Shown piece by piece: positions 7,641 to 59,416 of a stretch of DNA of 64,000 nt. Position numbers and translations under genes: made by a program. This DNA is from Streptacidiphilus pinicola. Lineage in GTDB: Bacteria > Actinomycetota > Actinomycetes > Streptomycetales > Streptomycetaceae. The notes below the pieces were generated by a model. It was not told the DNA's origin. It made no database searches and was given only the letters and a program-made list of their open reading frames with translations. The stretch lies in the NCBI RefSeq assembly GCF_003258295.1, contig NZ_QKYN01000042.1:1-64000 (forward strand), in the 5' to 3' direction. Numbering within the stretch: position 1 is the stretch's first letter; every line of letters starts with the position of its first letter.

Positions 7641-8519
7641 CTACGGCCGTACACCCACCAGATGCGTCAGCGCCGCGACCTGACGGTAGGGATCGGTGCG
7701 CCCGGCGCGGTCCTCGGCCTCCAGCAGCAGCGCGAGCTCCGCCGGGGTGGGGGCCGTGGAGTCGGCCAGGTCGGTGAAGACCCGCACGCCGTACCAGGCC
7801 CGCAGTGGCACGTCGAGCTCGGCGAGGGTCCGGCCGAGTGTCTCGCGGCGGTCGGCGCGGGTGGGCAGACCCAGGCGGTTGGTGTAGCCGTCGCCGGCGA
7901 AGGCGGCGACGGTGGTGGCCCAGTCGCCGGACAGTCCGGGTCGCATCGCCAGCGCGTCGCCGTTGCGGACCAGCACCGACAGCAGGCCGCCGGGGGCCAG
8001 TATCCGGGCCAGCGCCGCCAGCAACGGGCCGGGCTCGGGCAGGTACATCAGCACGCCGTGGCAGAGCACCACGTCGAACGCGGCCGGTCCGAACCAGCGG
8101 CCGCAGTCCTCGCCGGAACCCTGCAGCAACTGGACTCGGGCCTGCGTGTCGGGGGCCTCCAGGGCGAGCGCCCGCCGGGCGGCGTCGAGCGTCGTCGGAT
8201 CCGGGTCGAGGCCGGTCACCCGGTGGCCGAGACGGGCCAGGCGCAGCGCCTGGGTGCCCTGGCCGCAGCCGACGTCGAGGACCCGCAGGCCCGCGTCGAC
8301 CCCGTCGTGCCGGGCGAGCTGTTCGTCGAGCTGCCGGGCGACGAGCTCCTGGCGCACCAGGTTGCGCAGTCCGCCGAGCCCCGCGAGCCAGGCCGCCGCG
8401 CCGGGCGTGAAGCCGACCGGCGGCGGGACCGGACGGGGCACCGGCGGGAGGGACTCAGTGGCCGCCCGCTGTAACGGCAGCACCATGGTGGACTCGTCCG
8501 CGCCGGGACGCGGGTCCAT
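7641..8519 (-). CDS. Class I SAM-dependent methyltransferase
   Basis: 292 residues. The SAM-binding motif I is VLDVGCGQGTQ (about residue 80), followed by the acidic GLDPDP at the end of strand 2, FDVVLCHGVLMYL (motif II region) and LAPGGLLSVLVRNGDALAM. This pattern is that of the CmoM/SmtA-like Methyltransf_11 group. The first ~40 residues are Pro-rich and possibly disordered; an internal ATG (MVLPLQ, residue 12) is an alternative start. The acceptor substrate is unknown. Confidence 0.85.
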   Translation of the reverse strand: MDPRPGADESTMVLPLQRAATESLPPVPRPVPPPVGFTPGAAAWLAGLGGLRNLVRQELVARQLDEQLARHDGVDAGLRVLDVGCGQGTQALRLARLGHRVTGLDPDPTTLDAARRALALEAPDTQARVQLLQGSGEDCGRWFGPAAFDVVLCHGVLMYLPEPGPLLAALARILAPGGLLSVLVRNGDALAMRPGLSGDWATTVAAFAGDGYTNRLGLPTRADRRETLGRTLAELDVPLRAWYGVRVFTDLADSTAPTPAELALLLEAEDRAGRTDPYRQVAALTHLVGVRP

Positions 8520-41374: not shown

Positions 41375-42418
41375 GTGGCTTCTCACCGCCGGCCCCGTGA
41401 GGCCAGCCGTGCCCGTGTCTCCGTGCTGACAGCCGCCGCGGCCACCGTGGTGGCCCTGTCGGCGCAGACGGCGGCCCAGGCTGCCCCGGCGATCAGCACC
41501 AAGGACGCCAAGGCCCAGGTCGACGCGGACCGTTCCGACGCCGCGGCCAAGACCGAGCAGTGGAACCAGGCGCACACCCAGCAGCAGGCGCTGCAGCGCC
41601 GGGTGGCGATCCTTCAGGACGAGATCGCGCGTCAGCAGGCCGAGATCAACGGCGAGCTGGACAATCTCGGACAGATCGCCAACTCGCAGTACGCCTCCGG
41701 CGTGATCGACCCGACCATCCAGCTGATGCTCTCCAGTTCGCCGGACGCCTTCCTGCAGAAGGCCGCCTCCCAGGACGAGCTCACCAGCAACCAGACCTCC
41801 GAACTGCAGGCGCTGGTGTCCCAGGAGGCCACGCTCCAGCGCGAGAAGGCCGAGGCCGCCGCCGAGCTCGCCCAGGAGCAGACGCTGCTCTCGCAGATGA
41901 GCGCCGCCAAGACCGAGGCCCTGGCCAAGCTGAAGCACGCGCAGTCCGTGCTGGACGCACTGACCCCGGCCCAGCAGACCGCCGTCAACGGCGGCGGTGG
42001 CGGCGGTGGCTACGGCTCGGTCTCCAGCAGCGGCTACACCGGCCACATCGACCTGTCCGGCATATCCAGCGCCGCGCGCACCGCGATGGAGGCGGCGATG
42101 GGTCAGATCGGCGTGTCCCCCTACCTCTGGGGCGGTTCCACGCCGGCCGGCTTCGACTGCTCGGGCCTGGTCATGTGGGCCTACGCCCACGCGGGCATCT
42201 CGCTGCCGCACTCCTCCTACGCCGACGAGAGCGTCGGCACCAGGGTGCCGAGCATGGCCGACGCCCAGGTGGGCGACATCATCGTGATGGAGAACGGCGC
42301 CCACGTCGGCCTCTACGCCGGCAACGGGATGCTGCTGAACGCCCCGGAGTACGGCTACGACGTCTCGGTCCAGCCGATGAGCTACTTCGGCGGCGTGGTG
42401 GCGATCCGCCGCATGTGA
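41375..42418 (+). CDS. NlpC/P60 peptidoglycan hydrolase with coiled-coil, paralogue 1
   Basis: 347 residues. A signal peptide ends near residue 37 (AAQAAP). A long coiled coil (~42-195) resembles RipA/RpfB-type hydrolases, then a Gly-rich linker, then the NlpC/P60 domain (~230-347) with Cys262 (FDCSGL) and His310 (AHVGLYAGN). The third residue is Asn322 (LLNAPEY), where the two paralogues have His. GTG 41375; ATG-like upstream starts lack ribosome sites. No riboswitch is seen upstream, unlike paralogue 2. Confidence 0.93.
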   Translation: MASHRRPREASRARVSVLTAAAATVVALSAQTAAQAAPAISTKDAKAQVDADRSDAAAKTEQWNQAHTQQQALQRRVAILQDEIARQQAEINGELDNLGQIANSQYASGVIDPTIQLMLSSSPDAFLQKAASQDELTSNQTSELQALVSQEATLQREKAEAAAELAQEQTLLSQMSAAKTEALAKLKHAQSVLDALTPAQQTAVNGGGGGGGYGSVSSSGYTGHIDLSGISSAARTAMEAAMGQIGVSPYLWGGSTPAGFDCSGLVMWAYAHAGISLPHSSYADESVGTRVPSMADAQVGDIIVMENGAHVGLYAGNGMLLNAPEYGYDVSVQPMSYFGGVVAIRRM

Positions 42419-42664
42419 CGGCGTGTCGGAGCTTCTGTGAAGACTCTCACAGAACCGGTCCGCACAGCGATGGTATGACCGAATTCTCCCGCATGTCATC
42501 GGCATCCGGTCAGATTCCGACTACGGAGCGTTGATCCACTGACGACGCGTCGAAAGTGACGGAAGTTTTTTCTGACAAGGATTTGAAGCGATCACGGTTC
42601 GGTTACTAGGGTCTCTCCTCGAACCACCGTACGGTCGTCCATCCATCCCGGGTGGCAGCGGTGG

Positions 42665-42840
42665 TCACCGTCGAGTTCGACGACGCGGCAGATGGGGGAG
42701 GCCGTCGAGTCGGAGCCGGGGAACCAACGGTTCCCGGGGTGAATCGACGCCAGGGGCGGACCGGTGGGATTCCGGGACGACGGAGGCGTCGTAGGGCTGA
42801 CTTCCTGGCCCGAACCCGTCAGCTCACCCGGTAGGCGGCC
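42665..42840 (+). ncRNA. ydaO-type c-di-AMP riboswitch upstream of NlpC/P60 paralogue 2
   Basis: Consensus blocks in order: GAGCCGGGGAACC (42713-42725), GGGGTGAATC (42736-42745), TAGGGCTGACTTCC (42792-) and CCGAACCCGTCAGCTCACCCGGTAGGC (end 42838; shortest core CCGTCAGCTCACC). This class senses c-di-AMP and in Streptomyces precedes cell-wall hydrolase genes. The rest of the 445-bp gap 42419-42863 holds the presumed promoter near 42580-42610 and nothing else recognisable. AAGGAG at 42848-42853 serves the gene. Confidence 0.9.
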
Positions 42841-42863
42841 GTAGGAAGAAGGAGCTCGCCTTC

Positions 42864-43910
42864 GTGGCGTCCCATCGTCGTCCCAAGTCTCCCAGTCGCG
42901 CGCGCATGTCGGTCCTGACGGCCGCGGCCGCCACCGCGGTGGCGGTTTCCGCCCAGAGCGCGCAGGCTGCCCCGAAGCCGACCACGGCCCAGCTCAAGGC
43001 TCAGCTGCAGCAGCTGAACACCGAGGCCGACCAGGCGGTCCAGAAGTACGACGGCTCCCAGGAGCAGCTCCAGCAGCAGCAGGCCAAGGTCGGCACGCTG
43101 CAGGACCAGATCGCCCGGAGCCAGGCAGGTGTGAACACCCGCCTCGAGCAGCTCGGCCAGATCGCCAACCAGCAGTACGCGACCGGCGAGGTCGACCCGA
43201 CCGTGCAGCTGCTGCTGTCCGCCACCCCCGACGACTACCTGACCAAGGCGTCGTCCCTCGGGCAGCTGACGTCGAACCAGGCCTCCGAGATCCAGCAGCT
43301 CCAGACCGAGGAGCAAAAGCTCTCCGGCCAGAAGGCCCAGGCGGAGCAGACCCTGCAGCAGATCGAGTCCACCACCAAGCAGCTGGCCGCACAGAAGGCC
43401 GAGGCGCAGAAGAAGGTCCAGCAGACCCAGGCGCTGCTCGACTCGATGACCGCCGCGGAGCGCGCCGCCGTCACCAGCGGCCCCGCCTCGGGTTCGGGTT
43501 CCGGTTCGGGCGGCTCCGGCGTCACGGTCGGCGTCAACCTCGGCGGCTCCAAGGCCGGCGACTCCGCGGAGGCCACCGCCTTCGCCGCCGCCCAGACCAA
43601 GCTCGGCAGCCCGTACGTCTACGGCGCGACCGGCCCGGACTCCTTCGACTGCTCCGGCCTGACCCAGTGGGCCTACGCGCAGGCGGGCGTCTCCCTCGGC
43701 CGCACCACCTACGACCAGATCAACGACGGCACCCCGGTGTCCTCCACGGCCGATCTGCAGGTGGGCGACCTGATCTTCTTCAACGGCGACAGCCACGTCG
43801 GCATCTACGCCGGCAACGGCATGGTGCTGCACGCCCCGCACACCGGCACCGTCGTCAAGTACGAGCGCATGGACTGGATCGGCTCGATCTACGCGATGCG
43901 TCACATCTGA
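42864..43910 (+). CDS. NlpC/P60 peptidoglycan hydrolase with coiled-coil, paralogue 2
   Basis: 348 residues. Signal peptide ends near residue 36 (AQAAPK), coiled coil ~42-195, Gly/Ser linker, then the catalytic domain with Cys263 (FDCSGL), His311 (SHVGIYAGN) and His323 (LHAPHTG). GTG 42864 has AAGGAG about ten bases upstream. Probably controlled by c-di-AMP through the aptamer just upstream. A hairpin follows. Confidence 0.95.
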   Translation: MASHRRPKSPSRARMSVLTAAAATAVAVSAQSAQAAPKPTTAQLKAQLQQLNTEADQAVQKYDGSQEQLQQQQAKVGTLQDQIARSQAGVNTRLEQLGQIANQQYATGEVDPTVQLLLSATPDDYLTKASSLGQLTSNQASEIQQLQTEEQKLSGQKAQAEQTLQQIESTTKQLAAQKAEAQKKVQQTQALLDSMTAAERAAVTSGPASGSGSGSGGSGVTVGVNLGGSKAGDSAEATAFAAAQTKLGSPYVYGATGPDSFDCSGLTQWAYAQAGVSLGRTTYDQINDGTPVSSTADLQVGDLIFFNGDSHVGIYAGNGMVLHAPHTGTVVKYERMDWIGSIYAMRHI

Positions 43911-43925
43911 GCCCTGCTCGTCCCG

Positions 43926-43958
43926 TGAGCCCGCCGTCGGACACCGACGGCGGGCTCA
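43926..43958 (+). terminator. Terminator after NlpC/P60 paralogue 2
   Basis: Perfect 15-bp stem TGAGCCCGCCGTCGG/CCGACGGCGGGCTCA with an ACA loop. Confidence 0.9.
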
Positions 43959-44167
43959 TCTGCTGTTGGGTGCCGAGTGTCGGGGTGTCGGGCGTTCACT
44001 CCGTCGGGTGCATTTGCGGTGCGGCGTGCGGGGGTGTGTCGACCGGGCCGCCCGCCATCCGTCTCGGGGGCGACCTGCGGATTGGTTCACCTGCGCGGAT
44101 TTCGTGGGGATTTTTCAGCTCCTGGGAGCTTGGACTGCTTCTGTCCCACTCGCTAGCGTCTCCGCTC

Positions 44168-45235
44168 GTGGCTTCCCATCGAAGAGGCAGACGTCTCGGC
44201 CCCTCCGTGCTGTCCCGGGCCGCGGTGACCGTGGCCGCCGCGACGGCGGCGGTGCTCTCCGCGCAGGCCGGCGCCGAGGCGCAACCCGGTCCGTCCGGCG
44301 GCGCCGCCGCCGGCAGCCCCGACGAGGTGCGGCACCAGGTCGACTCGCTCTACTCCCAGGCGGAGACGGCGGATCAGCGGGCCGCGGGGGCGCAGGAGCG
44401 GCAGGCCGAGCTGCAGCGCCGGGCCGCGCTGCTCGAACAGCAGCTGGCCCAGGAGCAGCAGCGCGCCAACGACGTGGCGGGGCAGCTGGGCGTGATGGCG
44501 CAGTCCCAGTACGAGCAGGGCGGGACGATCGACCCGGTGCTGCAGCTGCTGATGAGCGCCCGTCCCGCGGACTACCTCGACCGCGCTGCCAGCCTCGGTG
44601 CGGTCGACTCCGACCTCGCCTCCCGGCTGGACGAGCTGCGCACCGACGAGCAGCGGGTGCAGCGCGACCGCAGGCTGGTGACCGAGCAGCTGGACGAGCT
44701 GGAACGGCTGCGCCGCTCCATCGCCACCGCCAAGGCCGACGTGCAGCGCCGGCTCGGCCACGCCCAGGCGCTGCTCGCGAGCCTGACGGCCGGTCAGCGC
44801 CAGGCGCTGCAGCGGCAGGAAGACGCCGCGGCTCAGGCCGCCGCCCAGGCGGCCGCGCTGCCGCTGCCGACGGGCCTCGGCCCGGTCGACGCCCGCGCCG
44901 CCGCGGCCCTGGCGGCCGCGCAGGCCGCGCTGGGGCTGCCGTACGTGTACGGCGCTACCGGTCCGGGGTCCTTCGACTGCTCCGGTCTGATGTACTGGGC
45001 CTGGCGGCACGCCGGGGTGTCGCTGCCGCGCACCTCCCAGGAGCAGGCCTTCGCGGGGCGGCGCGTCCCGCTTTCCGAGGCCAGGCCGGGGGACCTTGTG
45101 GTGTACTACCGGGATATGCACCATGTCGGCATGTATGCCGGAAACGGCATGATCATCCACGCTCCGTACCCCGGCGCCCGGGTCCGCTACGAGAGCGTCG
45201 ACGACATGCCCGTCGCCGCTGTGGTCCGCCCCTGA
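44168..45235 (+). CDS. NlpC/P60 peptidoglycan hydrolase with coiled-coil, paralogue 3
   Basis: 355 residues. Signal peptide ends around residue 38, coiled coil ~50-230, catalytic domain ~245-355 with Cys271 (FDCSGL), His319 (MHHVGMYAGN) and His331 (IHAPYPG). It shares the MASHRR opening with paralogues 1 and 2, indicating duplication. GTG 44168. The TGA overlaps the ATG of the metalloprotease gene by one base. Confidence 0.93.
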   Translation: MASHRRGRRLGPSVLSRAAVTVAAATAAVLSAQAGAEAQPGPSGGAAAGSPDEVRHQVDSLYSQAETADQRAAGAQERQAELQRRAALLEQQLAQEQQRANDVAGQLGVMAQSQYEQGGTIDPVLQLLMSARPADYLDRAASLGAVDSDLASRLDELRTDEQRVQRDRRLVTEQLDELERLRRSIATAKADVQRRLGHAQALLASLTAGQRQALQRQEDAAAQAAAQAAALPLPTGLGPVDARAAAALAAAQAALGLPYVYGATGPGSFDCSGLMYWAWRHAGVSLPRTSQEQAFAGRRVPLSEARPGDLVVYYRDMHHVGMYAGNGMIIHAPYPGARVRYESVDDMPVAAVVRP

Positions 45236-47827: not shown

Positions 47828-48958
47828 GTGAACAAGACCCTGATCGTCACCAACGACTTCCCCCCGCGCCAGGGCGGCATCCAGACCTTCGTGCACAACA
47901 TGGCCCTGCGCCTGCCAGCCGACAAGCTCGTCGTCTACGCCTCCACCTGGCGGGACGGCACGGAGGTGCGGAAGTTCGACGCGGAGCAGCCGTTCGAGGT
48001 GGTGCGGGACCGCACCACGATGCTGCTGCCCACGCCCCGGGTGACGCGGCGGGCCGCCGAGCTGCTGCGCGAGCACGGCTGCGCGTCGGTCTGGTTCGGG
48101 GCGGCCGCCCCGCTGGGTCTGATGTCCCCGGCGCTGCGGCGGGCGGGCGCCGAGCGGATCGTCGGGATGACCCACGGGCACGAGGCCGCGTGGGCGCAGC
48201 TGCCCGCCTCGCGGCAGCTGCTGCGCCGGATCGGCGCGGGCACCGACACGCTGACCTACCTGGGCGAGTACACCCGCTCCCGGATCGCCGCGGCGGTCGG
48301 CCCGCAGGCGGCCGCCCGCATGGTGCAGGTGCCGCCGGGGGTCGACGAGCAGACCTTCCACCCCGCCTCGGGCGGCGACGAGGTCCGGGACCGGCTGGGC
48401 CTCACCGACCGGCCGGTCGTGGTCTGCGTCTCGCGGCTGGTCAAGCGGAAGGGCCAGGACACCCTGGTCCGCGCCTGGCCGAGCGTGCTGGCCAAGGTGC
48501 CCGACGCGGTGCTGCTGATCGTCGGCGGCGGCCCGTACCGGGCCGATCTGGAGAAGCTGGCCGAGGAGACCGGCGTCGCCGCCTCGGTCCGGTTCACCGG
48601 CGCGGTCCCGTGGGAGGAGCTGCCCGCGCACTACGGCGCGGGCGACGTCTACGCGATGCCGTGCCGGACCCGCCGCGGCGGGCTGGACGTCGAGGGCCTC
48701 GGCATCGTCTACCTGGAGGCCTCGGCGACGGGTCTGCCGGTCGTCGCCGGTGACTCGGGCGGCGCCCCGGACGCGGTCCGGCAGGGCGAGACGGGCTACG
48801 TCGTGCCGGGCCGCGACCGGGGCGAGCTCGCCGAGCGCCTGGTCGAGCTGCTGGACGACGCCGGTCTCCGCGCCCGGATGGGCGCGGCGGGGCGGCAGTG
48901 GGTCGAGCAGGCCTGGCGCTGGGACCTGCTCGCGCACCGGCTGGAGGGCCTGCTCTAG
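47828..48958 (+). CDS. pimB: GT4 mannosyltransferase, PimB-like
   Basis: 376 residues. GT-B fold with TNDFPPRQGGIQTF N-terminal loop, MTHGHEAAW, CVSRLVKRKGQD, GGGPYRADLEKLA and the donor E-x7-E (VEGLGIVYLEASATGLPVV). It closely resembles corynebacterial/mycobacterial PimB, which adds a mannose to PIM1. GTG 47828 is the start; GAGGA lies about 14 bases upstream, a long spacing. It is convergent with a GT-C gene and overlaps it by 4 bp. Confidence 0.88.
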   Translation: MNKTLIVTNDFPPRQGGIQTFVHNMALRLPADKLVVYASTWRDGTEVRKFDAEQPFEVVRDRTTMLLPTPRVTRRAAELLREHGCASVWFGAAAPLGLMSPALRRAGAERIVGMTHGHEAAWAQLPASRQLLRRIGAGTDTLTYLGEYTRSRIAAAVGPQAAARMVQVPPGVDEQTFHPASGGDEVRDRLGLTDRPVVVCVSRLVKRKGQDTLVRAWPSVLAKVPDAVLLIVGGGPYRADLEKLAEETGVAASVRFTGAVPWEELPAHYGAGDVYAMPCRTRRGGLDVEGLGIVYLEASATGLPVVAGDSGGAPDAVRQGETGYVVPGRDRGELAERLVELLDDAGLRARMGAAGRQWVEQAWRWDLLAHRLEGLL

Positions 48959-50451
48959 CTGACCCGCTGCCAGATGTCGTACGTCTGCGTCCCGTGGCTG
49001 GTCCTGCCCGGAACGCTCGCCACGAGCCGGTAGCCTGCCGGGTCCGCCCGGAGCGCAGCCTTCAGCTGCCTGTCCAGAGCGGCCGTCGGGCCGTAGTCCA
49101 GCACGACCAGGTTGAAGTACCCGTCGTGGATGGCCGCCCGGTAGGCCGGGAGGCCGGTCAGGGAGGTGCCCGACTTCGTCGTGTACTGGAAGTAGTACGT
49201 GGTCAGCCACTCGTACGGCTCGGTCCGCGCGGCCAGGTAGTAGCGGGGGACCTCGTTCTCCTCCACCAGGTAGCGCTGATTCGAACCCGGCCCGACCAGC
49301 GGCCGCAGCGCCGACACCTCGCCCGAGGAGTCCGGCCAGCCGCCGTACATCGGGGTGACGGCGTGGTTCGCGTAGAAGGCCAGCAGCACGCAGACGCCCA
49401 GCGCGAAGCCCGGGACCGCCCGGGCCGTGTTGAGCCGCGCCGCCGAGGCGAGGCCCAGGCCCGCCACCGGCGCGGCGAAGAGCAGGCCGAAGCCCACGTG
49501 CTTGTGCAGCGAGACCGAGGTGCCCAGGTGCGCCTGGTAGAGCGTGGCGAAGCTCGCCGTCACCGTCAGCGCGGCGGCCAGCAGCGTGCCGGGGAGACGT
49601 GGCCTGTCGGGGGACTGGCTCCGCGCCGCCACGACGACGCCGACGACGGCGAGGACCGCGATCCAGCCGCCCCAGACCGCGGAAAGCCGCAGGATGTTCG
49701 CGAGCGGTTCGGCGCCGGTCGCGCGGTTGACGGTGGTCTGGTCCAGGCCCTGCCGCAGCGAGGGCCAGGCCACCAGCGCCGCCCAGCCGAGCCCGACGGT
49801 CGCGGCCGCCAGCAGGCCGCCGCGCACCGCGGCGCGCGCCCAGGAGCCACCGGCCGCCACCACGGTCAGCGCCGCGGCGACCACCACGGTCGGCAGGTAC
49901 AGCGCGGAGGCGTACTTGGTCGCCGCCGCCAGCACCAGCACCGGCGCCGCGCACAGCACCCACGCCGGGTTGGCCCGGGCCAGCCGCACCACCAGCCACA
50001 ACGCCACGGCCAGCAGAAAGACGCACATCGCGTCGTAGGTGGCCAGCCGGCTCAGGAACAGCGTCGGCGCGGAGACCCCGAACAGCACCGCCGCGACGAT
50101 CGCGGGCTGCCGGCCGTAGAGCCGACGGGCCGTCATCCACACCAGGATGGTGGCGCCGAGCATGAACAGCAGGCTCAGCGCCCGCGCCCCCTCCAGGCCG
50201 AGCGCACCGTCGACGAGCGCGGCCAGCACCGGGTAGAGGAAGGGCGCGCCGGAGAAGTACGACGCGTAGGAGTCGTAGGTCGGCGTGTGGTGCAGCAGGA
50301 AGGCGAGCTCGCGGTGGCCCGCGTACAGGTACAGCGCCTCGTCCTCGAAGGCGGTGTTGGCCAGCAGGTAGGCGAGGCCGATCTGCAGGGCCAGCACGGC
50401 GAGGAGTGGCCACCGGTCCCGGAGCGCGGCGCGGCTGGCGGTGAGGCTCAC
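48955..50451 (-). CDS. GT-C fold membrane glycosyltransferase (ArnT/PMT-like) A
   Basis: 498 residues, about twelve membrane helices. The first extracellular loop has acidic NTAFEDEALYLYAGHR, typical of the DE motif of GT-C enzymes using polyprenyl-phosphate sugar. The C-terminal ~110 residues form a soluble extracellular domain (RYYLAARTEPYEWLTTYYFQ). GTG 50451-50449 overlaps the stop of the upstream GT-C gene B (GTGA). Last gene of the four-gene operon that begins at 57411. Confidence 0.85.
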   Translation of the reverse strand: MSLTASRAALRDRWPLLAVLALQIGLAYLLANTAFEDEALYLYAGHRELAFLLHHTPTYDSYASYFSGAPFLYPVLAALVDGALGLEGARALSLLFMLGATILVWMTARRLYGRQPAIVAAVLFGVSAPTLFLSRLATYDAMCVFLLAVALWLVVRLARANPAWVLCAAPVLVLAAATKYASALYLPTVVVAAALTVVAAGGSWARAAVRGGLLAAATVGLGWAALVAWPSLRQGLDQTTVNRATGAEPLANILRLSAVWGGWIAVLAVVGVVVAARSQSPDRPRLPGTLLAAALTVTASFATLYQAHLGTSVSLHKHVGFGLLFAAPVAGLGLASAARLNTARAVPGFALGVCVLLAFYANHAVTPMYGGWPDSSGEVSALRPLVGPGSNQRYLVEENEVPRYYLAARTEPYEWLTTYYFQYTTKSGTSLTGLPAYRAAIHDGYFNLVVLDYGPTAALDRQLKAALRADPAGYRLVASVPGRTSHGTQTYDIWQRVS

Positions 50452-52067
50452 TGCCCGCCTCCGGCCTGCTGGTGGAAGGTGTGGCCGGTCTTGTCGACGC
50501 GGAGGATGTCGATCTCCTGGGTTCCGGTGCCGAACCTGGCCACCACCACGGAGTGCTGCATCGCGGCGCGGACGGTGGGCAGGCCGTTGGGGTCCTCACG
50601 GATGATGGAGGAGGACACCACGTAGTCGATGTCCTTCCAGCCGTGCGGCAGGGTGCGGGTGACGGCGGGGTCGAGGTCGACCTTGTAGAACCAGATCGCG
50701 CCGAGCCCCGGCCGGAAGCCCTGGTCGACCAGGTCCGGCCACATCGCGTCGTCGGAGACGATCCGGACGTGCGGCCTGTCGGCGACATTGGCTTTGATCC
50801 AGGCGGAGGCCTGGCTGTACTCCTGGTTGCTGTAGGCGGTGTCGGCGGTCTCGTCGCCGGCCTCCCAGTGCGGCGCGACCAGGCCCGCCAGGATGACGGC
50901 CCCGAAGGCCAGCACGTTGCGCGACTGTGGCAGCCACCGGGACACCCGGCCGCCGAGGAACTGACGGGCCGTCGCGTCCGCGACGCCGGCGGCGCACAGG
51001 GCGAAGAAGGGCAGCGCCTGCAGCACGTACATGGCCGGCAGGTACCCGCCGGGCCGCAGCGCCACGGCGACCAGCAGCAGCGAGGCGATCGCCACCTCGC
51101 GCACCCGCTTCACGAACAGGGCCACCAGCGTGGCGGCGACGCCGACGGCGAGGATGACCGGGTCCCGGACCACCCACCAGTGCAGCGTCATGTTGGTGAC
51201 CGAGCCGGTCTGCAGCAGCCAGCCGGAGCTGCCGCCGCGGCCGAGCTGGAACTGGAGCGCGCCGATCAGCGAGTTGTGGTCGGGGCCGGGGAACAGCTCG
51301 CCCTTGAGCACCGCGTAGAGCAGGTACTGGAAGCTCAGCAGCAGGAAGCTCATGGCGAAGCCGACCATGGAGAAGATCCGGGTCGAGCGGTCCGAGCCGC
51401 GCCACACCGCGAGCACCAGGGCCGGCAGCGTGATGACCATCGTCTCCTTGGAGAGCACCGAGACTCCGGCGCAGACCCCGGCCGCGATGTGGTGCCACAG
51501 GTGCTTGCGCTGCGAGAGCGCGAAGGCGAAGGCCGCCAGCATCCACGGCACCGCGAAGTTGTCGAGGTAGATCTCGCGCTGCATGGTCACCGACAGCGGT
51601 GAGAGCCCGAAGACGACCATCGCCAACGCGGCCGCCCAGCGCGGCAGGTCCATCCGGCGCGCCACGACGTAGACCAGCGCGGCGGACGCGGCCGTGACCG
51701 GCACCATGATGACGCGGGCCTGCATCACCACGTTCATGCCGTGGTCGAACAGGGCCGGGATCCAGGACAGCGCCGCGATCTGCAGCCAGCCCAGCGGCGG
51801 ATGGTCGTACCAGTAGCTGTAGTGGGCCAGCGCCCCCTCGTGCTGGACCGCCCAGGCCTGCGCGAGGTAGGTGCCCTCGTCGTCGCTGACGGTCGGGAAG
51901 TTGCCGATGTTGACCGCCTGGACCAGCACGATCACCACCAGGAGCGGCACGGCGACCACCAGGTCGGGCCGCGCCGCGGCCCAGCGCGCCAGCCGGCCGG
52001 GCGGTGGTGCCGCGGCCGGCTCCTCGGTGTTCGGGTGTGTGGCGACGGCCTCGACGACTGACGTCAT
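50448..52067 (-). CDS. GT-C fold membrane glycosyltransferase (GT39/ArnT-like) B
   Basis: 539 residues, about twelve membrane helices. The first external loop carries TVSDDEGTYLAQAWAV, and SYWYDHPPLGWLQ follows, the ArnT/PMT-family pattern. YLDNFAVPWMLAA is in the next conserved loop. C-terminal ~140 residues are extracellular. ATG 52067. It probably transfers a sugar from a polyprenyl carrier to an extracellular acceptor. 28 bp after the GT2 gene in the same operon. Confidence 0.86.
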   Translation of the reverse strand: MTSVVEAVATHPNTEEPAAAPPPGRLARWAAARPDLVVAVPLLVVIVLVQAVNIGNFPTVSDDEGTYLAQAWAVQHEGALAHYSYWYDHPPLGWLQIAALSWIPALFDHGMNVVMQARVIMVPVTAASAALVYVVARRMDLPRWAAALAMVVFGLSPLSVTMQREIYLDNFAVPWMLAAFAFALSQRKHLWHHIAAGVCAGVSVLSKETMVITLPALVLAVWRGSDRSTRIFSMVGFAMSFLLLSFQYLLYAVLKGELFPGPDHNSLIGALQFQLGRGGSSGWLLQTGSVTNMTLHWWVVRDPVILAVGVAATLVALFVKRVREVAIASLLLVAVALRPGGYLPAMYVLQALPFFALCAAGVADATARQFLGGRVSRWLPQSRNVLAFGAVILAGLVAPHWEAGDETADTAYSNQEYSQASAWIKANVADRPHVRIVSDDAMWPDLVDQGFRPGLGAIWFYKVDLDPAVTRTLPHGWKDIDYVVSSSIIREDPNGLPTVRAAMQHSVVVARFGTGTQEIDILRVDKTGHTFHQQAGGGQ

Positions 52068-52095
52068 CGCGGTATTCCCCCCTCGGGATGTTCAG

Positions 52096-53337
52096 TCAAC
52101 TCTCGGCGAGGTGCGCGCCGACGTGGCGGGTGAGCTCCCAGTCCTTGCGCCCGCGCAGTTCACGCCAGACCGCGCGCAGCGCCGCCCCCGCCAGGATCAA
52201 CTGGTAGAACGGGGCCCCCACGAGCAGCTTCGCGTAGTGGCTGAACCGCACCCGCAGCTGGTACTGCTTGCCGAAGTCGTGCAGCCCGACGACCTCGAAG
52301 GCCGTCATCGCGGCCATCGGCACCAGCGGCGAGAAGGAGACGAGCGCGACCGCCACCGGCACCTGGGCGACGAAGGCCAGCACCACGCCGGCCAGCAGGG
52401 CCAGACCCGACAGGGCCTGGATGAACGGGGTGACCAGCGTGTAGCGGGCCAGCATCCGCTGCCGCAGCGAGGGCAGCCGCTTCCAGTCCTTCTTGCGGTA
52501 GACCTGCAGGAAGCCCTGGTTCCAGCGGGTGCGCTGCTTGAACAGCGAGACCACCGAGTCCGGGGTCTCCTCGCGGGTGACCATCTCGGAGTCGTAGGCG
52601 ACCACGACCTTCTTGCCCTGGCTGGACAGCCGCACGCCCAGGTCGCAGTCCTCGGCCAGGCAGGCCTCGTCCCAGCCGCCGTACTCGCGCAGCAGCTCGG
52701 TGCGGACGAAGACGGTGTTGCCGCCGAGCGGGATGAAGCCCTTCTCGGCGTGCAGGTGCAGCCGCGAGCGGAACCAGAAGAAGTACTCCAGGCAGTTGCG
52801 CAGGCTGTACCAGCTGGAGTGGAAGTTGATCAGCTGGACGCCCCCCTGCACCACGTCGGCCCGGGTGTCGCGGAAGGCGTGGTCGACGTGCGCCAGCAGC
52901 TCCGGATGGACCTGGTCCTCGGCGTCGAAGACGCCGACGACGTCGCCGCGGCAGCTGGGCAGCGCGTTGTTGAGCGCCTTCGGCTTGTTCTTCTTCTCGT
53001 GGTGGTCGGTCACCACGCTGACCAGCCGCGGGTGTTCCGCGGCGAGCCGGTGCGCCACCGCGGCCGTGTCCGGATCGTCGTGGCCGACGATGACGATGAC
53101 CTCGTAGTCGGTGTGCGTGGACTCCAGCAGCCGGAGCACGGTGTGCTCCAGCACCTCCTGTTCGTGCCGCGCGGGCACCAGCAGCGAGAAGGAGAGCGCT
53201 CCGGCTCCGTCCGGCGCGCTGAACCGGGTGCCGGCCAGCGTCTCCGGGGTGCGCCAGGCGTGCAACATCCACCACAGGGTGAACACGGCCACCCAGAAGA
53301 GTGCGAGCGAGCACACCACGATGAACGCGGAAATCAT
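52096..53337 (-). CDS. GT2 membrane glycosyltransferase, processive synthase type
   Basis: 413 residues. One N-terminal helix, a GT2 catalytic domain (~45-290) with VIVIVGHDD, GVFDAEDQVHPE (DxD-type), AEDCDLG and QRTRW (QxxRW), and three or four C-terminal helices. This is the layout of polysaccharide synthases such as hyaluronan, cellulose or PNAG synthases. ATG 53337. It follows the secreted lectin-propeller gene by 24 bp and precedes the two GT-C genes. Confidence 0.88.
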   Translation of the reverse strand: MISAFIVVCSLALFWVAVFTLWWMLHAWRTPETLAGTRFSAPDGAGALSFSLLVPARHEQEVLEHTVLRLLESTHTDYEVIVIVGHDDPDTAAVAHRLAAEHPRLVSVVTDHHEKKNKPKALNNALPSCRGDVVGVFDAEDQVHPELLAHVDHAFRDTRADVVQGGVQLINFHSSWYSLRNCLEYFFWFRSRLHLHAEKGFIPLGGNTVFVRTELLREYGGWDEACLAEDCDLGVRLSSQGKKVVVAYDSEMVTREETPDSVVSLFKQRTRWNQGFLQVYRKKDWKRLPSLRQRMLARYTLVTPFIQALSGLALLAGVVLAFVAQVPVAVALVSFSPLVPMAAMTAFEVVGLHDFGKQYQLRVRFSHYAKLLVGAPFYQLILAGAALRAVWRELRGRKDWELTRHVGAHLAES

Positions 53338-53361
53338 GGTTGGGTCCCCTCCCCGGATTTC

Positions 53362-56300
53362 TCAGGACGTGTACGTGATCGTGGGGGCGGAGACCGCGAA
53401 GGTGTCCGTGGAGGCGCCGACGCCTGCGGTGAAGCCGACCAGGACCTTGTTCGGCAGGGTCACCGCCTGGTCGATCTCCTGGACGCCGTCGACGGAGACG
53501 ACGAGATGACTCGCCGCCGTCACCTGGACGTCGATCGTGTGCGTCGCCCCCTGCAACGCCGGCATGTTCGTGGTGTACCCGAGTGTGTTGAACGTCGTGG
53601 TGCCGGAACTCGTGGTGGCCACGCCCAGATCGGGCGCGCTGCCGGCGCCGAAGTTGGAGAAGACCGCCAGCCCGGCGACCGTCGCGTCCAGCCCGGTGGC
53701 GCCCAGCCCGCTGCCGTCGTGGCCGAGCGACGAGGTGGACATGGTGGCCGCGTTCAGCAGCGCGAAGGTCATGCCGTCGCCCGGCTGCGTGCCGGTGGAG
53801 TTGATCGACTCCGTGAACGTGGCGTGCAGCCCGAGCGGGCTGACGGGCGTGGCGTTGATGACGTCGCCCTTGGACGAGTGCATCCCGTCGGTGGTGAGCG
53901 AGACGACGCCCGCCGACTGGGTGCTCACGCCGTTCAGGTGCCAGCTCGGGTCGGTGAAGCCGGGCAGCGTGCCGCCGGTCCCGGCCGGCTGGCCGGTGCC
54001 CGAGAGTGAGACGGTGACGGTGCCGCTGGTCGTGGTGACGGCGAAGGAGCTGTTCTGGTCGCCCGTCAGCGTCGGTGCGAAGCTGACCGGCACGCTGATC
54101 GAGGCGCCCGGGGCCACGGCCGTGCCCACGGCGGGCAGCGTCGCGCCGAAGGGCTCGGCCGGTGCCGTGACCGCCGAGACGGTCTCGGTGCCGCTGCCGT
54201 TGTTCCGCAGCGTCACCGACTGGCCGGCGGTGCCGCCGACCGTCTGCGAGCCGAAGGTGACCGCGGTCGGCGTCGGCGTCAGCGCCTGCCCGCCGGTGGC
54301 GGCGGGGGCCGGCGGGGTGATGGTGAGGTTCGTGATCGCGTGGACGTCCGTGCTGCTGCCCGTCCCGCCGGTGAAGCCGACGTAGGCGTTGCTGGGCAGC
54401 ACCCCCGCGGCCGGGACGTAGTCGAGCAGTTGGGTGCCGTCGACGCCGACCTTGACGTGACCGCCGGCCGTGGTGACGGTCACCGCGTGGCTGCCGCTCT
54501 CCAGCGAGGTCGGGACCTTGGCCCAGGCCAGGTAGTTCAGGTTGTCCGCGCCGGAGCCCGGGCCCTGCGCGATGCCGACGAAGTTGCCCATCCCGGTCTG
54601 GCCGCTCCAGCTGGTGGCCAGGACCACCGCGAGGCCGGGCAGCTTGGAGAAGCCCATGCCGCCGCCGGCGACGCCGGTGCCGGTCGCGCTGCCCCTGGAC
54701 GAGTCGACCAGTGCGTAGGTCGCCCCGTCTCCGCCGCTGCCGCCGCTGAACGTGCTGGTGAACGACGCGGTCAGGCCGTCGGTCTGCACGGCGCTCGGGT
54801 AGAAGGCGGAGCCGGACTGCTGGGTCGTCGCCGGGGTGAGCCGGATCGCGCCGGCCGAGAGCGTCGCCGAGCCGTTGGCCTGCCAACCCGTCGGTGGCTG
54901 CGGCAGTGTGGCGAGGCCGGTGCCGGAGAGCTGGACGTACAGGTCGCCCTGGCCGGTGTTGCCGGTGATCTCGTAGCTGTCGCTGAGCGCGCCGGCCGTG
55001 GTGGGCGAGAAGACCACCGGCACCTGGACCGCCTGGCCGGGGCCGAGCACCTGGCCCTCGGCGATCGCGTTCGGGCTGGAGAAGGTGCCGACCGGCGCCT
55101 TCGCCTTGTTGAGGGTGACCGGGATGTTGCCGTCGTTGGTGACGGTGAAGCTCAGCGGCGGCGAGGTCGTGCCGACCGGCACGTTGCCGAAGGCCAGCGC
55201 GGCCGGAGTGATCGTCAGATGCCCCTGCCCGGTCACCGAGCTGCCGCTGAGCGGCACGGTGAAGGTGCCGGAGGTCGAGGTGACCGAGAGCTGGTCGCTG
55301 GACGAGCCGGCCGTGGTCGGGTGGTAGGTGACGGACTCGGTGAACGAGCCGCCCGCCGGCACCACGGTGCCGACGGCCGGGGCCCCCGTCACGCTCCACG
55401 GGGCGGAGGGCGCGCCGACGGCCGAGACGGTCTCGCTGCCGGTGCCGGTGTTGGTGAACTGCACGCTGCTCGACACCGGCACGCCGGTGGGCTGCCCGGT
55501 GAAGCTCACGCTCGCCGGAGCGGTCGCGAACCCGGCCTTGACGCCGGTGCCGCTGACCGAGAAGCCCACCGTGCCCTGGTCGGTGGCGATGTCGACGATG
55601 CCGGTGGTCGCCCCCGCCGCGGTCGGCGTGAAGGTGACCGGGACGGTGAGCGTGCCGCCGGTCGCGAGGGCGGCGGGCAGCGTGGGCGGGGTCACCGCGA
55701 ACGGCGCCGAGGTGCTGACGCCGGTGACGTTCAGCGCGCGCGAGGCGGTCACGGTGAGCGTCCCGCTGCCGCTCGCCCCCACGTTGACCTGGCCGACCGA
55801 GACCGGCTGCCCGGTCAGCACCGAGGCCGCGGGGCGGCCGAAGGCCAGCACGTGGCCGTCGCGGGAGCCGATGTAGACCCGGCCGCCGCTGGTGGCCGGG
55901 GTGACGAACTTCGAGGCGATGCCGTAGGGCGCGGACCAGAGCACGCTGAGCGAGCCGTCCGCGTTCGGCGTGGCGTTGTACGCGTAGAGCGTCGCGCCGT
56001 TGCCGTACATGTCGTCGGCCCTGGAGACCCAGACCACGGCGCTGCCCGCGGTGGTGCCGGTCGACGTGACGGTCGGCGAACCCTCGTTGAGGTAGCCGAA
56101 GTTGATCGAGCCCTGGCCGACCAGGGCGAGCGCCGGGTTGCCGTTGCCGTCGGCGCCGAGGTGGAAGGCCTGCAGCGGGCCGCCGTTGCTGGAGTAGTAG
56201 ACGTAGCCGCCGTTCGCCCCCCAGAAGGCCGGGTGGCAGTAGCAGCCGGTGTACGGGCCGAGCGTCTGCACGTTCGCGTCCCCGCCGCCACTGCCCTGGC

Positions 56301-57411
56301 CCATGCCGCCGAGGTTGTCGCGGTTGAGCAGGAAGACCCGGCCGTCCTTGCCCTCGGTGACGGCGAGGTGCGGGACCGCAGTGGTGCCGTAGCCGTCGGG
56401 GATGGCCATCACGCCGCCGGAGCCGAGGTCGCGGTCGTTCTGGTCGAGGTAGGCCGCGTTGGAGGGAGCGAAGAAGTCGTTGGCCTTGAGGGAGCCGTCG
56501 CCCTGCACGGTCAGCGAGATGACCGACTCGGACATGGTGGCCGGCGGGCTGGAGCCCGGACCGACGGGCGGCGAGACACCGTTGCCGGTGGAGAACTCGA
56601 TATGGCCCTGCGCGTCGGCGACCAGGCCGCCGCCGGAGGCCCAGATGCCGCCGCCCTGGTTGGCCGCGCCGGTCTCGTCGGCCCACATCGTGGTCTGCTT
56701 GCCGGCGGTGTTGACGCCGACGACGAAGCCGCGCCAGTTGCCGTGGTCGCAGACCGAGCCGAAGCCGGCGTAGACGACGCCGTTCAACAGCAGCAGACCG
56801 GGCCGCTGGCCCTGCTGGACGGGGGTGAACACGGTGGAGGGGTCGTTGCCGGCCGAGCCGGAGATGACGACGGGGAAGCCGGGCTTCTCGTTGCCGGTCA
56901 CCGGGTCCACGGCGTGCATCTTGAAGACCGGGGCCTCGTGGTACTGGCCGCCGTCCTCCTTGGAGACCAGGTACACGTAGCCGGAGGCGGCGTCGTAGAC
57001 GGGCGTGCCGCTGATGCCGATGTACGGGGCGAGGTCGCCGCAGGACCAGGTGGCCCCGGGCGTGGTCACGCCGGAGGCGGGCCAGGGCGCGCCGTAGGCG
57101 TCCGTCCACTTGATCGCGCCGGTGACCGCGTCCAGGCCGTAGACGTGGTTGGTCTCGGTGGCGACCACGACGGTGCCGCCGACGACCACGGGCTGCGCGT
57201 AGACCTGCCCGTCGACGGCGGTGGAGAACTGCTGGCCGAAGTCGGACGAGGAGACCTGGCTGGGCGTCAGGCCGGGCTCGTTCTGGTCCCAGCCGGTGCG
57301 GTAGGTGTCCTGCGAGACGGTGCTCTCATCGGCGTGGGCCGAGACGGCGGCGCCGCCCAGCAGTGCGGCGGTCAGGCTGAACGCGGCGAATATCCTGGTC
57401 AGCACGGACAT
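53362..57411 (-). CDS. Large secreted protein: PQQ-type beta-propeller, ASH/Ig repeats, two L-type-lectin-like domains
   Basis: 1349 residues. Signal peptide to about Ala27. Residues ~55-527 form a PQQ-like beta-propeller (VYGLDAVTGAIKW, VYIGSRDGHVLAFG). Residues ~528-625, 626-725 and 726-832 are ASH/choice-of-anchor-D Ig-like repeats (LAFGNVPVGTTSPPLSFTV). Residues ~840-1032 resemble an L-type lectin (GGDGATYALVD, VKVGVDGTQLLDY, AYVGFTGGTGSS). Residues ~1040-1140 are another ASH domain, and ~1147-1349 a second lectin-like domain (GDGMTFALLN, VLVGFTAGVGASTD). No LPXTG anchor, so it is freely secreted or bound through lectin contact. ATG 57411; first gene of the operon leading to GT2 and two GT-C genes. 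Confidence 0.85.
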   Translation of the reverse strand: MSVLTRIFAAFSLTAALLGGAAVSAHADESTVSQDTYRTGWDQNEPGLTPSQVSSSDFGQQFSTAVDGQVYAQPVVVGGTVVVATETNHVYGLDAVTGAIKWTDAYGAPWPASGVTTPGATWSCGDLAPYIGISGTPVYDAASGYVYLVSKEDGGQYHEAPVFKMHAVDPVTGNEKPGFPVVISGSAGNDPSTVFTPVQQGQRPGLLLLNGVVYAGFGSVCDHGNWRGFVVGVNTAGKQTTMWADETGAANQGGGIWASGGGLVADAQGHIEFSTGNGVSPPVGPGSSPPATMSESVISLTVQGDGSLKANDFFAPSNAAYLDQNDRDLGSGGVMAIPDGYGTTAVPHLAVTEGKDGRVFLLNRDNLGGMGQGSGGGDANVQTLGPYTGCYCHPAFWGANGGYVYYSSNGGPLQAFHLGADGNGNPALALVGQGSINFGYLNEGSPTVTSTGTTAGSAVVWVSRADDMYGNGATLYAYNATPNADGSLSVLWSAPYGIASKFVTPATSGGRVYIGSRDGHVLAFGRPAASVLTGQPVSVGQVNVGASGSGTLTVTASRALNVTGVSTSAPFAVTPPTLPAALATGGTLTVPVTFTPTAAGATTGIVDIATDQGTVGFSVSGTGVKAGFATAPASVSFTGQPTGVPVSSSVQFTNTGTGSETVSAVGAPSAPWSVTGAPAVGTVVPAGGSFTESVTYHPTTAGSSSDQLSVTSTSGTFTVPLSGSSVTGQGHLTITPAALAFGNVPVGTTSPPLSFTVTNDGNIPVTLNKAKAPVGTFSSPNAIAEGQVLGPGQAVQVPVVFSPTTAGALSDSYEITGNTGQGDLYVQLSGTGLATLPQPPTGWQANGSATLSAGAIRLTPATTQQSGSAFYPSAVQTDGLTASFTSTFSGGSGGDGATYALVDSSRGSATGTGVAGGGMGFSKLPGLAVVLATSWSGQTGMGNFVGIAQGPGSGADNLNYLAWAKVPTSLESGSHAVTVTTAGGHVKVGVDGTQLLDYVPAAGVLPSNAYVGFTGGTGSSTDVHAITNLTITPPAPAATGGQALTPTPTAVTFGSQTVGGTAGQSVTLRNNGSGTETVSAVTAPAEPFGATLPAVGTAVAPGASISVPVSFAPTLTGDQNSSFAVTTTSGTVTVSLSGTGQPAGTGGTLPGFTDPSWHLNGVSTQSAGVVSLTTDGMHSSKGDVINATPVSPLGLHATFTESINSTGTQPGDGMTFALLNAATMSTSSLGHDGSGLGATGLDATVAGLAVFSNFGAGSAPDLGVATTSSGTTTFNTLGYTTNMPALQGATHTIDVQVTAASHLVVSVDGVQEIDQAVTLPNKVLVGFTAGVGASTDTFAVSAPTITYTS

Positions 57412-57435
57412 TTATGACGAAGTCCCCCCACGTCC

Positions 57436-57468
57436 GAATGCGCGCGGAATGCGCGCGGTATGCGCGGG
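57436..57468. repeat. 11-bp tandem repeat (x3) upstream of the lectin-propeller operon
   Basis: GAATGCGCGCG at 57436-57446 and 57447-57457, then the variant GTATGCGCGGG at 57458-57468. The 11-bp period is one helical turn. It lies 25-57 bp upstream of the start codon. Confidence 0.8.
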
Positions 57469-57539
57469 GCCCAGGATTCCAGCGGATGTGGAGGGAGTGT
57501 GGGGAAAGCGAGCAGAAGTTACTCGCCGTTAACGCGAAA

Positions 57540-57566
57540 CCCCCCGGAGCCACGGATTCCGGGGGG
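57540..57566 (-). terminator. Second hairpin of the fadD tandem terminator
   Basis: Perfect 9-bp stem CCCCCCGGA/TCCGGGGGG with a 9-nt loop, downstream of fadD in transcript order. Confidence 0.75.
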
Positions 57567-57571
57567 AGTGT

Positions 57572-57598
57572 GAGATTCCGGTCAATTACCGGAATCTC
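57572..57598 (-). terminator. First hairpin of the fadD tandem terminator
   Basis: Perfect 11-bp stem GAGATTCCGGT/ACCGGAATCTC with a CAATT loop, 21 bp after the fadD stop. Confidence 0.85.
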
Positions 57599-57619
57599 GG
57601 CGTCACTTCGCGTGCCTCG

Positions 57620-59416
57620 TCACTTGGAATACAGTGCCTCGACCTCGTCGGCGAAGTCCTTCATCACGACCGCGCGCTTCAGCTTCATCGAGGGCGTCAG
57701 GTGGCCGGAGTCCTCCGACAGCACTGTGTCGATGACGCGGAACTTCTTGACCGCCTCGGCGTGCGAGACCGCCGCGTTGCCGTCGTCGATGGCGGCCTGG
57801 ATCGCTTCCTGCAGGTCGGCGTCGTGCAACAGGTCGGTGACCGTGGCCTGCTCCGGCTTGCCGTGCAGCTGCTTCCAGGTGGGGAAGAACTCCGGGTCCA
57901 CGGTGATCAGCGCGCCGATGAACGGGCGGCGGTCGCCGACCACCATGCACTCGCCGATCAGCGGGTGCGCCCGGACCCGGTCCTCGATCACGGCCGGGGC
58001 GACGTTCTTGCCGCCCGCGGTGACGATGATCTCCTTCTTGCGGCCGGTGATCTTCAGGTAGCCGTCCGCGTCCAGCTCGCCGATGTCGCCGGTGGCGAAC
58101 CAGCCGTCGTGCAGCGCCTCGGCGGTGGCCTCCGGGTTGTTCCAGTAGCCGGCGAACACCTGCGGGCCCTTGAGCAGCACCTCGCCGTCCTCGCCGATCC
58201 GCGCGGCCGAGCCGGGCAGCGGCTGGCCGACGGAGCCGATCTTCGGCTTGTCGTGCGGGTTGAACGCGGTGGCCGCGCAGGTCTCGGTCAGGCCGTAGCC
58301 CTCGAGCACGGTGAAGCCGATGCCGCGGTAGAAGTGGCCCAGGCGCTCGCCCAGCGGCGCGCCGCCGGAGATGGCGTGGGTGGCCCGGCCGCCCAGCGCG
58401 TTGCGCAGCTTGCTGTAGACCAGCGCGTCGAACATCCGGTGACGCAGCCTCAGGCCGAGCGAGGCGCCGCCCGGGGTGTCCAGCGCGCGGCTCCAGGCGA
58501 TGGCGGTCTCGGCGGCGCGGTCGAAGATCTTGACCTTGCCCTCCGCCTGCGCCTTGGCACGGGCGGCATTGTAGACCTTCTCGAAGACACGCGGCACGCC
58601 GAGGATCAGCGTCGGGCGGAACGAGGCCAGCTCGGCGGTGACCTCCTTGATGTCCGGCACGTGGCCGATCCGGATCGGCGCCATCACGGCGGCGATCTCG
58701 GCGATCCGGCCCAGCACGTGGGCCTGCGGCAGGAAGAGCAGCACCGAGGAGTGGCCGGGCCGGAACAGCGGCTGCAGCCGGGCGGTGATGTTGCCGAGCT
58801 CCGCCATGAAGTTGGCGTGGGTCAGCATGCAGCCCTTGGGGCGGCCGGTGGTGCCGGAGGTGTAGACGATGGTGGCGATCGAGTCGGGGCCGAGGGTGGC
58901 CCGGCGCTCCTCGACCGCGGCGTCGGAGACGTCGGCGCCGGCTCTCACCAGCTGCTCCAGGCCGCCCGCCTCCAGCTGCCAGACCTGCTTGAGCTCCGGC
59001 AGCCGCTCACGCACCTCGGCGATGACGGCCTCGTGCCGCGGCAGCTCCGCGACGCAGGCCACCGCGCCGGAGTTGCCGAGGATCCACTCGACCTGCTCGG
59101 CCGAGGAGGTCTCGTAGACCGGCACGGTGATGCCGCCGGCGCACCAGATGGCGAAGTCGAGCAGGGTCCACTCGTAGCGGGTCCGCGCCATCAGGCCGAC
59201 CCGGTCGCCGGGGCCGACGCCGGAGGCGATCAGGCCCTTGGCCGCGGCCCGTACCTCCGTGAGGAAGCCGACGGCGGTGCGGTCCTGCCAGGCGCCGTTG
59301 ACCTTGCGGGCGACGAGCGGCAGATCGGGATACCGCTCGGCGTTGGCATGGATGAGATCGGTGAGGTTTCCGCCGCTCGGCACTTCGTAGAGGGCCGGAA
59401 GGCTGAACTCGCGCAA
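57620..59416 (-). CDS. fadD: Long-chain acyl-CoA synthetase (FadD15-type)
   Basis: 598 residues, AMP-forming adenylating enzyme. P-loop-like A3 motif YTSGTTGRPKGCMLTH (about residue 180), LEGYGLTETCAATAF (A5), GWFATGDIGELDADGYLKITGRKKEIIVTAGGKNVAP for the hinge (shortest GYLKITGRKKEI). It activates fatty acids as acyl-CoA. The likely start is TTG 59416-59414 with GAGGAG eight bases upstream, giving MREFSLPALYEVP. Two tandem terminators lie downstream. It is divergent from the metallophosphoesterase gene (206 bp). Confidence 0.93.
   Translation of the reverse strand: MREFSLPALYEVPSGGNLTDLIHANAERYPDLPLVARKVNGAWQDRTAVGFLTEVRAAAKGLIASGVGPGDRVGLMARTRYEWTLLDFAIWCAGGITVPVYETSSAEQVEWILGNSGAVACVAELPRHEAVIAEVRERLPELKQVWQLEAGGLEQLVRAGADVSDAAVEERRATLGPDSIATIVYTSGTTGRPKGCMLTHANFMAELGNITARLQPLFRPGHSSVLLFLPQAHVLGRIAEIAAVMAPIRIGHVPDIKEVTAELASFRPTLILGVPRVFEKVYNAARAKAQAEGKVKIFDRAAETAIAWSRALDTPGGASLGLRLRHRMFDALVYSKLRNALGGRATHAISGGAPLGERLGHFYRGIGFTVLEGYGLTETCAATAFNPHDKPKIGSVGQPLPGSAARIGEDGEVLLKGPQVFAGYWNNPEATAEALHDGWFATGDIGELDADGYLKITGRKKEIIVTAGGKNVAPAVIEDRVRAHPLIGECMVVGDRRPFIGALITVDPEFFPTWKQLHGKPEQATVTDLLHDADLQEAIQAAIDDGNAAVSHAEAVKKFRVIDTVLSEDSGHLTPSMKLKRAVVMKDFADEVEALYSK

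Follow-up and report, generated by a model that had tools for sequence, protein, structure and literature searches.

The genome of Streptacidiphilus pinicola contains, between the pimB and fadD genes, four adjacent open reading frames (termed A, B, C and D) that are predicted to encode one secreted protein and three glycosyltransferases. The locus raises the question of what these genes make together, and of whether the secreted protein is a fixed part of the system. The block is located on contig NZ_QKYN01000042.1 (assembly GCF_003258295.1), of which positions 1 to 64,000, i.e. a stretch of 64,000 nucleotides, were analyzed and are termed here the window. The block is probably a surface-glycan synthase unit of a known type that carries a different secreted partner. 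Its core is a glycosyltransferase family 2 (GT2) gene next to a gene for a glycosyltransferase of the C fold (GT-C), and this pair is spread over the phylum. We favor a model, at a probability of roughly 55% by analogy with known systems, in which the block encodes a surface-polysaccharide machine where B would polymerize, C and D would decorate and A would bind or organize the product outside of the cell.

Loci that were fetched for comparison are numbered with the prefix L and genomes with the prefix G, where G000 is the genome of the window. The features of the locus are as follows:

Gene A, 53362-57411, minus strand: 1349 amino acids (aa), ATG start; propeller-ASH-lectin protein, predicted to be exported
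Gene B, 52096-53337, minus strand: 413 aa, ATG start; membrane GT2
Gene C, 50448-52067, minus strand: 539 aa, ATG start; GT-C (PMT-type) glycosyltransferase
Gene D, 48955-50451, minus strand: 498 aa, GTG start; second GT-C (PMT_2-type) glycosyltransferase
Inserted block, 48957-57617, no strand: between pimB and fadD, at a site that has about 70 bp in L131
pimB, 47828-48958, plus strand: flanks the block
fadD, 57620-59383, minus strand: flanks the block

The original prediction of a four-gene minus-strand operon agrees with the gene calls in coordinates, gaps and overlap, and on the sequence an operon is probable. All four genes are read from the minus strand; A and B are 24 bp apart, B and C are 28 bp apart, and C and D overlap by 4 bp. 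The 3′ end of D overlaps the 3′ end of pimB on the opposite strand. One terminator-like site is found in the region 48900-57700, located within D, versus 2.2 expected in shuffled sequences.

The GT2/GT-C pair

B is a GT2 protein by Pfam, and its conserved catalytic motifs DAED, ED and QRTRW are invariant in all 32 aligned sequences, including that of the window. It has a hydrophobic segment at the N-terminus and two or more in the C-terminal part. C matches PMT (32.4 bits versus a cut-off of 22.7) and D matches PMT_2 (39.2 bits versus 26.1) in Pfam. In C, residue D63 is conserved in 31 of 32 sequences and so is E64, and E38 of D is invariant in the 12 that were aligned. Against solved structures, C gives only matches at an E-value of 0.2 or worse, to glycerol kinase. 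The Pfam matches and the motif conservation bear out the earlier assignment of B as a GT2 with D-x-D/QxxRW-type motifs and of C and D as PMT-like enzymes.

In a survey of 121 genomes of the family (B at E <= 1e-60, C at E <= 1e-20), the 22 genomes with B are also the 22 with C, and the two genes are neighbors in every one of these, with a divergent orientation in three loci (L037, L042 and L047). A sample of 396 genomes of the phylum has B in 13, seven of them outside of the family, and in each of these seven B adjoins a C relative (27-55% identity by segment). Because the phylum sample began from B, it tests the presence of C beside B and not the reverse. These and the other locus counts treat related genomes as separate, and the gene calls in relatives come from a codon-score script, which missed D in L082 (recovered by tblastn). 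The domains, together with the conserved B-C pair, support the view of the block as a GT2/GT-C glycan unit. The results point to a phylum-wide pair; among the matches listed in the open PMC literature there is no description of the GT2/GT-C pair, of the block or of the propeller-ASH-lectin protein.

The pairing also bears on a different reading, where C and D are protein O-glycosyltransferases whose substrate is A, a Ser/Thr-rich exported protein, such that the block makes a secreted glycoprotein. The PMT and PMT_2 matches above cut-off, the common operon of A, C and D and the known occurrence of protein O-mannosylation in actinobacteria are in accord with it. However, within the stretches covered, the B-C pair lacks A at 18 of the 22 loci in the family and at all seven beyond it, and A relatives are without a C- or D-type GT-C in 29 of 35 loci. 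We regard this reading as improbable.

A variable secreted partner

The 22 family loci differ in the secreted protein that accompanies the core pair. A GlxA-like kelch protein is present in 16, A together with D in four (the window, G046, G030 and G027), and neither in two, namely L050 and L029, the latter with 4,569 bases covered. Three of the kelch partners were scanned (L036, L034 and L038) and all show galactose-oxidase and glyoxal-oxidase domain matches. The closest solved relative of the L036 protein is 4unm (E = 2.8e-82), an entry titled "secreted protein" which we take to be GlxA. The motifs FC.GH, WYP, R.YHS and TH..D..QR, which presumably supply the copper ligands and the Cys of the cross-link, are all present in 16 of 16 oxidase-type partners.

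Pfam and NCBIfam scans show no GlxA-type oxidase in the window block. A search of the window genome with one oxidase-type query gives no GlxA-like match at E <= 1e-20, which may reflect loss, an assembly gap or the limit of the search. G046 and G030 each have a GlxA-like match at 41-43% identity.

In the original prediction the lectin protein binds, carries or anchors the product of a new surface-glycan system. In this form the reading is not supported, as the lectin protein is not the constant part: the GT2/GT-C pair has a GlxA-like partner in 16 of 22 family loci and 29 of 35 loci of A relatives are without a relative of B, C or D. A fixed lectin-GT2 partnership was therefore rejected: most A relatives stand apart from B-D and the GT2 is mostly partnered otherwise.

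Additional genes also vary among these loci. A fused GT2-GtrA gene is found in 15 of the 22 family loci, i.e. 14 of the oxidase type and L032, which is of the lectin type, and it is found in L073 as well. The closest solved relative of the L032 fusion is a dolichol-phosphate-mannose synthase, 5mlz (E = 6.6e-57). L029 has a glycoside hydrolase family 5 (GH5) gene beside the core pair. In L124, positions 4651-7743 encode a 1030 aa protein that combines a GSDH-type propeller with CWB2 repeats, two genes away from a distant GT2/GT-C pair, and the N-terminal part of this protein resembles that of GlxA-like proteins (29% over 184 residues).

We tentatively suggest that the GT2/GT-C core works with exchangeable propeller partners, which would be a GlxA-like oxidase in most loci, a GSDH-type protein in one distant lineage, and A, with its own GT-C, here. 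The partner and not the synthase would then set the finish of the polymer, either oxidized and cross-linked or protein-bound. Species that combine one GT2/GT-C core either with an oxidase or with a lectin-like protein form a natural series, and partner swaps would test the role of the partner directly.

Phylogeny of the GT2 proteins

A maximum-likelihood tree of 32 GT2 sequences has long branches outside of the family; its label "none" on seven phylum-level GT2s denotes the presence of neither a GlxA-like protein nor A (L124 has the GSDH-type protein). The seven GT2s with a lectin partner form a single clade (support 95/91). They come from the window, G046, G030, G027, Kitasatospora humi, Actinacidiphila oryziradicis and a Catenulispora bin. 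D is present in all seven loci, and A-B-C-D have the same direction in six, with A divergent from B-C-D in the Catenulispora bin.

The lectin clade is positioned among the oxidase-partner GT2s via branches with support of 84/78, and one change of partner suffices. Partner exchange is evident from the tree, however its direction (which partner came first) is not forced, because the lectin clade lies among oxidase forms and yet separate clades are not rejected: constraining the 16 oxidase-partner GT2s to one clade costs 5.9 log units (p = 0.104, approximately unbiased test). The oxidase may have been the earlier partner.

The proposed mechanism and the product of B

In the favored model, B would polymerize a chain from a nucleotide sugar and move it through the membrane. 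C would add sugars to this chain on the outer face with a polyprenyl-phosphate sugar as the donor, and D would add a second decoration. A, once exported, would bind, space or anchor the decorated polymer outside, and would take the place that a GlxA-like copper-radical oxidase has in related loci. Processivity of B, and the sugar and linkage of its chain, are conjectural.

Several results weigh against this model. The best match of B among solved structures is 6yv7 (E = 2.8e-9), which we take to be a non-processive enzyme, with a weaker match to cellulose synthase 5ej1 (2e-6). None of the NCBIfam cut-offs is attained by B. GtrB and GtrA genes are missing from the window block, and the best match to the L032 copy elsewhere in the genome is 36% identical. 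The possibility that the oxidase was not the first partner (the unrejected constraint described above), the majority of A relatives without glycan genes and the lack of a canonical metal-site Asp in the lectin modules (see below) belong here as well.

Because the best solved match of B is an enzyme taken to be non-processive, a glycolipid product has to be considered. B would then make a glycolipid or a lipid-linked sugar that is extended by C and D or used by them as a donor, and the product would be a glycolipid or a modified wall polymer rather than a new polysaccharide. The solved relatives of B also include ceramide glucosyltransferases, there are few hydrophobic segments in its C-terminal region, and by Pfam scan the four genes include neither a flippase nor a separate polymerase. 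On the other hand, the QRTRW and DAED/ED motifs are invariant (32 of 32), genes of the GH5 and GH26 (glycoside hydrolase family 26) types are present in related units, and the usual partner is GlxA-like, where GlxA partners a polymerizing synthase (PMC11022532). A glycolipid product is unlikely in our estimation, though it deserves to be kept in mind beside the polysaccharide model.

A specific assignment of B as the poly-beta-1,6-N-acetylglucosamine synthase PgaC/IcaA was rejected (TIGR03937, 82.6 bits versus a cut-off of 422.3).

Domains of the A protein

The A protein displays the following regions, all encoded on the minus strand:

Residues 1-27, 57331-57411, minus strand: hydrophobic N-terminus, signal-peptide-like, with the cleavage site placed by eye
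Residues 36-530, 55822-57306, minus strand: PQQ/BamB-type beta-propeller
Residues 531-838, 54898-55821, minus strand: ASH / choice-of-anchor-D Ig repeats (NF012200)
Residues 840-1035, 54307-54894, minus strand: first L-type lectin-fold module, without the canonical metal Asp
Residues 1047-1140, 53992-54273, minus strand: ASH Ig domain that separates the lectin modules (PF22544, PF15780)
Residues 1147-1349, 53365-53973, minus strand: second L-type lectin-like module, without the canonical metal Asp; known by homology

Hydrophobic segments of A are found only within residues 1-25. A Pfam scan shows a pyrroloquinoline quinone (PQQ)-type propeller, several ASH/HYDIN-type Ig domains and L-type-lectin matches, and there are four NF012200 stretches in the whole protein. 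The propeller scores 33.2 bits with PQQ_2 (cut-off 27.6), and its profile matches are to designed propellers and BamB. The structural model of this region is of moderate confidence (predicted local distance difference test, pLDDT, 73.3), with BamB and PQQ alcohol dehydrogenases as the best structural matches. Thus the trait of PQQ-dependent dehydrogenases that A appears to possess, by sequence and model, is a PQQ-type propeller.

The two lectin modules are 34% identical to each other in A1. PF00139 (33.0 bits) and PF03388 (30.6 bits) are over their cut-offs and PF18483 (47.8 bits) is under its cut-off of 78.3. A profile of 14 modules matches the L-type lectin 7elv among solved structures with an E-value of 4.7e-18. 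Structure prediction around residues 840-1032, a region that the original prediction had singled out for modeling, gives a lectin fold with a pLDDT of 88.0 and a template modeling (TM) score of 0.75 to 7elv.

The modules have the fold of the L-type lectins (7elv, VIP36 and ERGIC-53) and keep their conserved DG motif. Both window modules, however, lack the metal-site Asp of DT..N, which we assume to be the metal-binding residue of L-type lectins. This Asp is found in none of the 14 modules of the clade linked to the glycosyltransferases and is retained in 13 of 20 modules of other A relatives. The comparison is limited to modules with an alignment of at least 120 residues, and the 20 include those of L098 and L099 from a second glycosyltransferase cluster, also without the Asp. 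Given the 7elv match and the model, the L-type lectin fold of module 1 is considered secure; classical metal-dependent sugar binding, with the Asp absent, is not. Of the earlier lectin assignment, then, the fold of module 1 is upheld by profile and model, and glycan binding by the modules is putative.

Relatives of A and D at other loci

The A propeller is found in 35 of the 121 family genomes. The 35 A-relative loci that were fetched (L075 and L089 are one place) comprise four of the window type, two next to another glycan cluster (L098 and L099) and 29 without a relative of B, C or D. A and D relatives lie within 20 kb of each other in eight of the 121 genomes, in two types of cluster.

The second type is found in G021, G039, G082 and G088. 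It has in all four cases an A relative, a different GT2, a GH26-like gene, a D relative and a GtrB-like gene; a further GT-C is present in three of four and a uridine diphosphate (UDP)-sugar dehydrogenase in two of four. Pfam supports the assignments in members: the GT2 matches Cellulose_synt, and L143 encodes a GtrA domain. The D relatives are uneven: that of L141 exceeds the PMT_2 cut-off, that of L144 falls short of it and that of L098 matches nothing in Pfam. The positions of the second cluster are:

L141, 5316-17707: second cluster
L142, 3163-14799: second cluster
L143, 3-13829: second cluster
L144, 3-11297: second cluster

The synteny search thus recovered a recurrent linkage between the lectin protein and GT2 and GT-C genes, which the original prediction had listed, for the GT2, as evidence in its favor, in seven window-type loci and in the second cluster of four genomes.

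This linkage has to be set against the view of A as a secreted adhesin or structural protein of general function, whose position upstream of the glycan genes is accidental and which has only a promoter in common with them. The 29 A-relative loci (of 35) without B, C or D are in keeping with such a view, as is the presence of three other A-propeller relatives on other contigs of the window genome. Against it, A-D are together in 7 of 7 cases despite different neighbors (two Streptacidiphilus sites, Kitasatospora humi, Actinacidiphila oryziradicis, G027 and the Catenulispora bin), and A relatives recur in the second GT2/GT-C cluster. A chance association is very improbable compared with the preferred role of A as a partner of the synthase unit.

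The three additional propeller relatives in the window genome are on contigs C43, C188 and C264 (L086-L088) and show 56, 55 and 37% identity. A small gene is located directly downstream of stand-alone A relatives in five loci, L084 (13726-14076), L085, L086, L101 and L102, and that of L084 has a Lipoprotein_15 repeat. In G030 and G046 (contigs C1, C46 and C57), D relatives lie a few kb from relatives of the second-cluster GT2 at several places; because of this proximity, D-type GT-C enzymes may commonly accompany the second-cluster synthase. In L141 and L143 the second cluster adjoins genes that resemble ribosomal-protein genes (names assigned by eye).

Comparison with known systems

PMC11022532 describes CslA-GlxA as an experimentally shown cellulose synthase complex of synthase and partner, where removal of much of the extracellular part of GlxA reduces activity, and treats the role of GlxA for the Streptomyces surface glucan as still open to debate. 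The likeness to the present system consists of a GT2 with DxD, ED and QxxRW motifs encoded together with a large extracellular beta-propeller partner, and the oxidase-type relatives of the block encode a GlxA-like protein. B differs from CslA in being a different, shorter GT2 with a GT-C beside it (22 of 22 and 7 of 7 loci), and the window differs in having no oxidase but a PQQ-type propeller-ASH-lectin protein and a second GT-C.

Three-component extracellular glycosylation, as outlined in PMC13390465, uses a glycosyltransferase of the GT-A fold, a GtrA flippase and a GT-C. It resembles the present loci in that the GT-C enzymes are taken to act outside and in the GT2-GtrA fusion of 15 of the 22 family loci; here, however, the partner that stays constant is a QxxRW-type GT2, and GtrA is missing from the window block. 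The same article describes the gsf cluster of Actinoplanes missouriensis, which has GT2s and GtrA and is required for normal sporangia (PMC13390465). This is likewise an actinomycete glycan cluster with GT2s, but the passages on it mention no GT-C-fold enzyme, and one 11-helix protein is without a predicted domain. PMC13390465 uses none of the terms "lectin", "propeller" and "galactose oxidase".

The site of insertion

The original prediction had suggested that the block is an insertion between pimB and fadD, and the comparison with L131 confirms this: homology with L131 ends at position 48956 and restarts at 57618. Since L131 matches both flanks, the insert of the window and of G046 amounts to about 8.66 kb, compared with about 70 bp at this position in L131. 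L130 also matches the window on both flanks, but has undetermined bases (N) between them. On these sequence comparisons the block is inserted, and it is part of a wider family of loci.

A fadD homologue (E <= 1e-200) is present in 13 of 14 Streptacidiphilus genomes, including that of the window, and the empty-site sample consists of 11 fadD loci, with the window genome and G046 left out. In all 11, pimB adjoins fadD with no tblastn match to A-D between them. The site is empty in G030 too, although this genome has an A-D block elsewhere. The spacers range from 27 to 1947 bp. Nine of the 11 are free of N, and L130 (527 N) and L132 (203 N) are not; the spacer of L133, at 1,947 bp, is without relatives of A-D.

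An import from a foreign source is unsupported by composition (GC of 0.719 in the block and 0.716 in the window). No plasmid-borne B relatives were found at E <= 1e-60 in the plasmid collection. S. jiangxiensis carries an orthologous block, and its A relative shows 93% identity over the propeller.

Elsewhere in the window, at 41423-45235 on the plus strand, there are three adjacent genes whose products, of 331-342 aa, resemble each other in their exported N-termini; the last two of the three cluster together. S. jiangxiensis (L031) has three members of this family, which is a tandem family.

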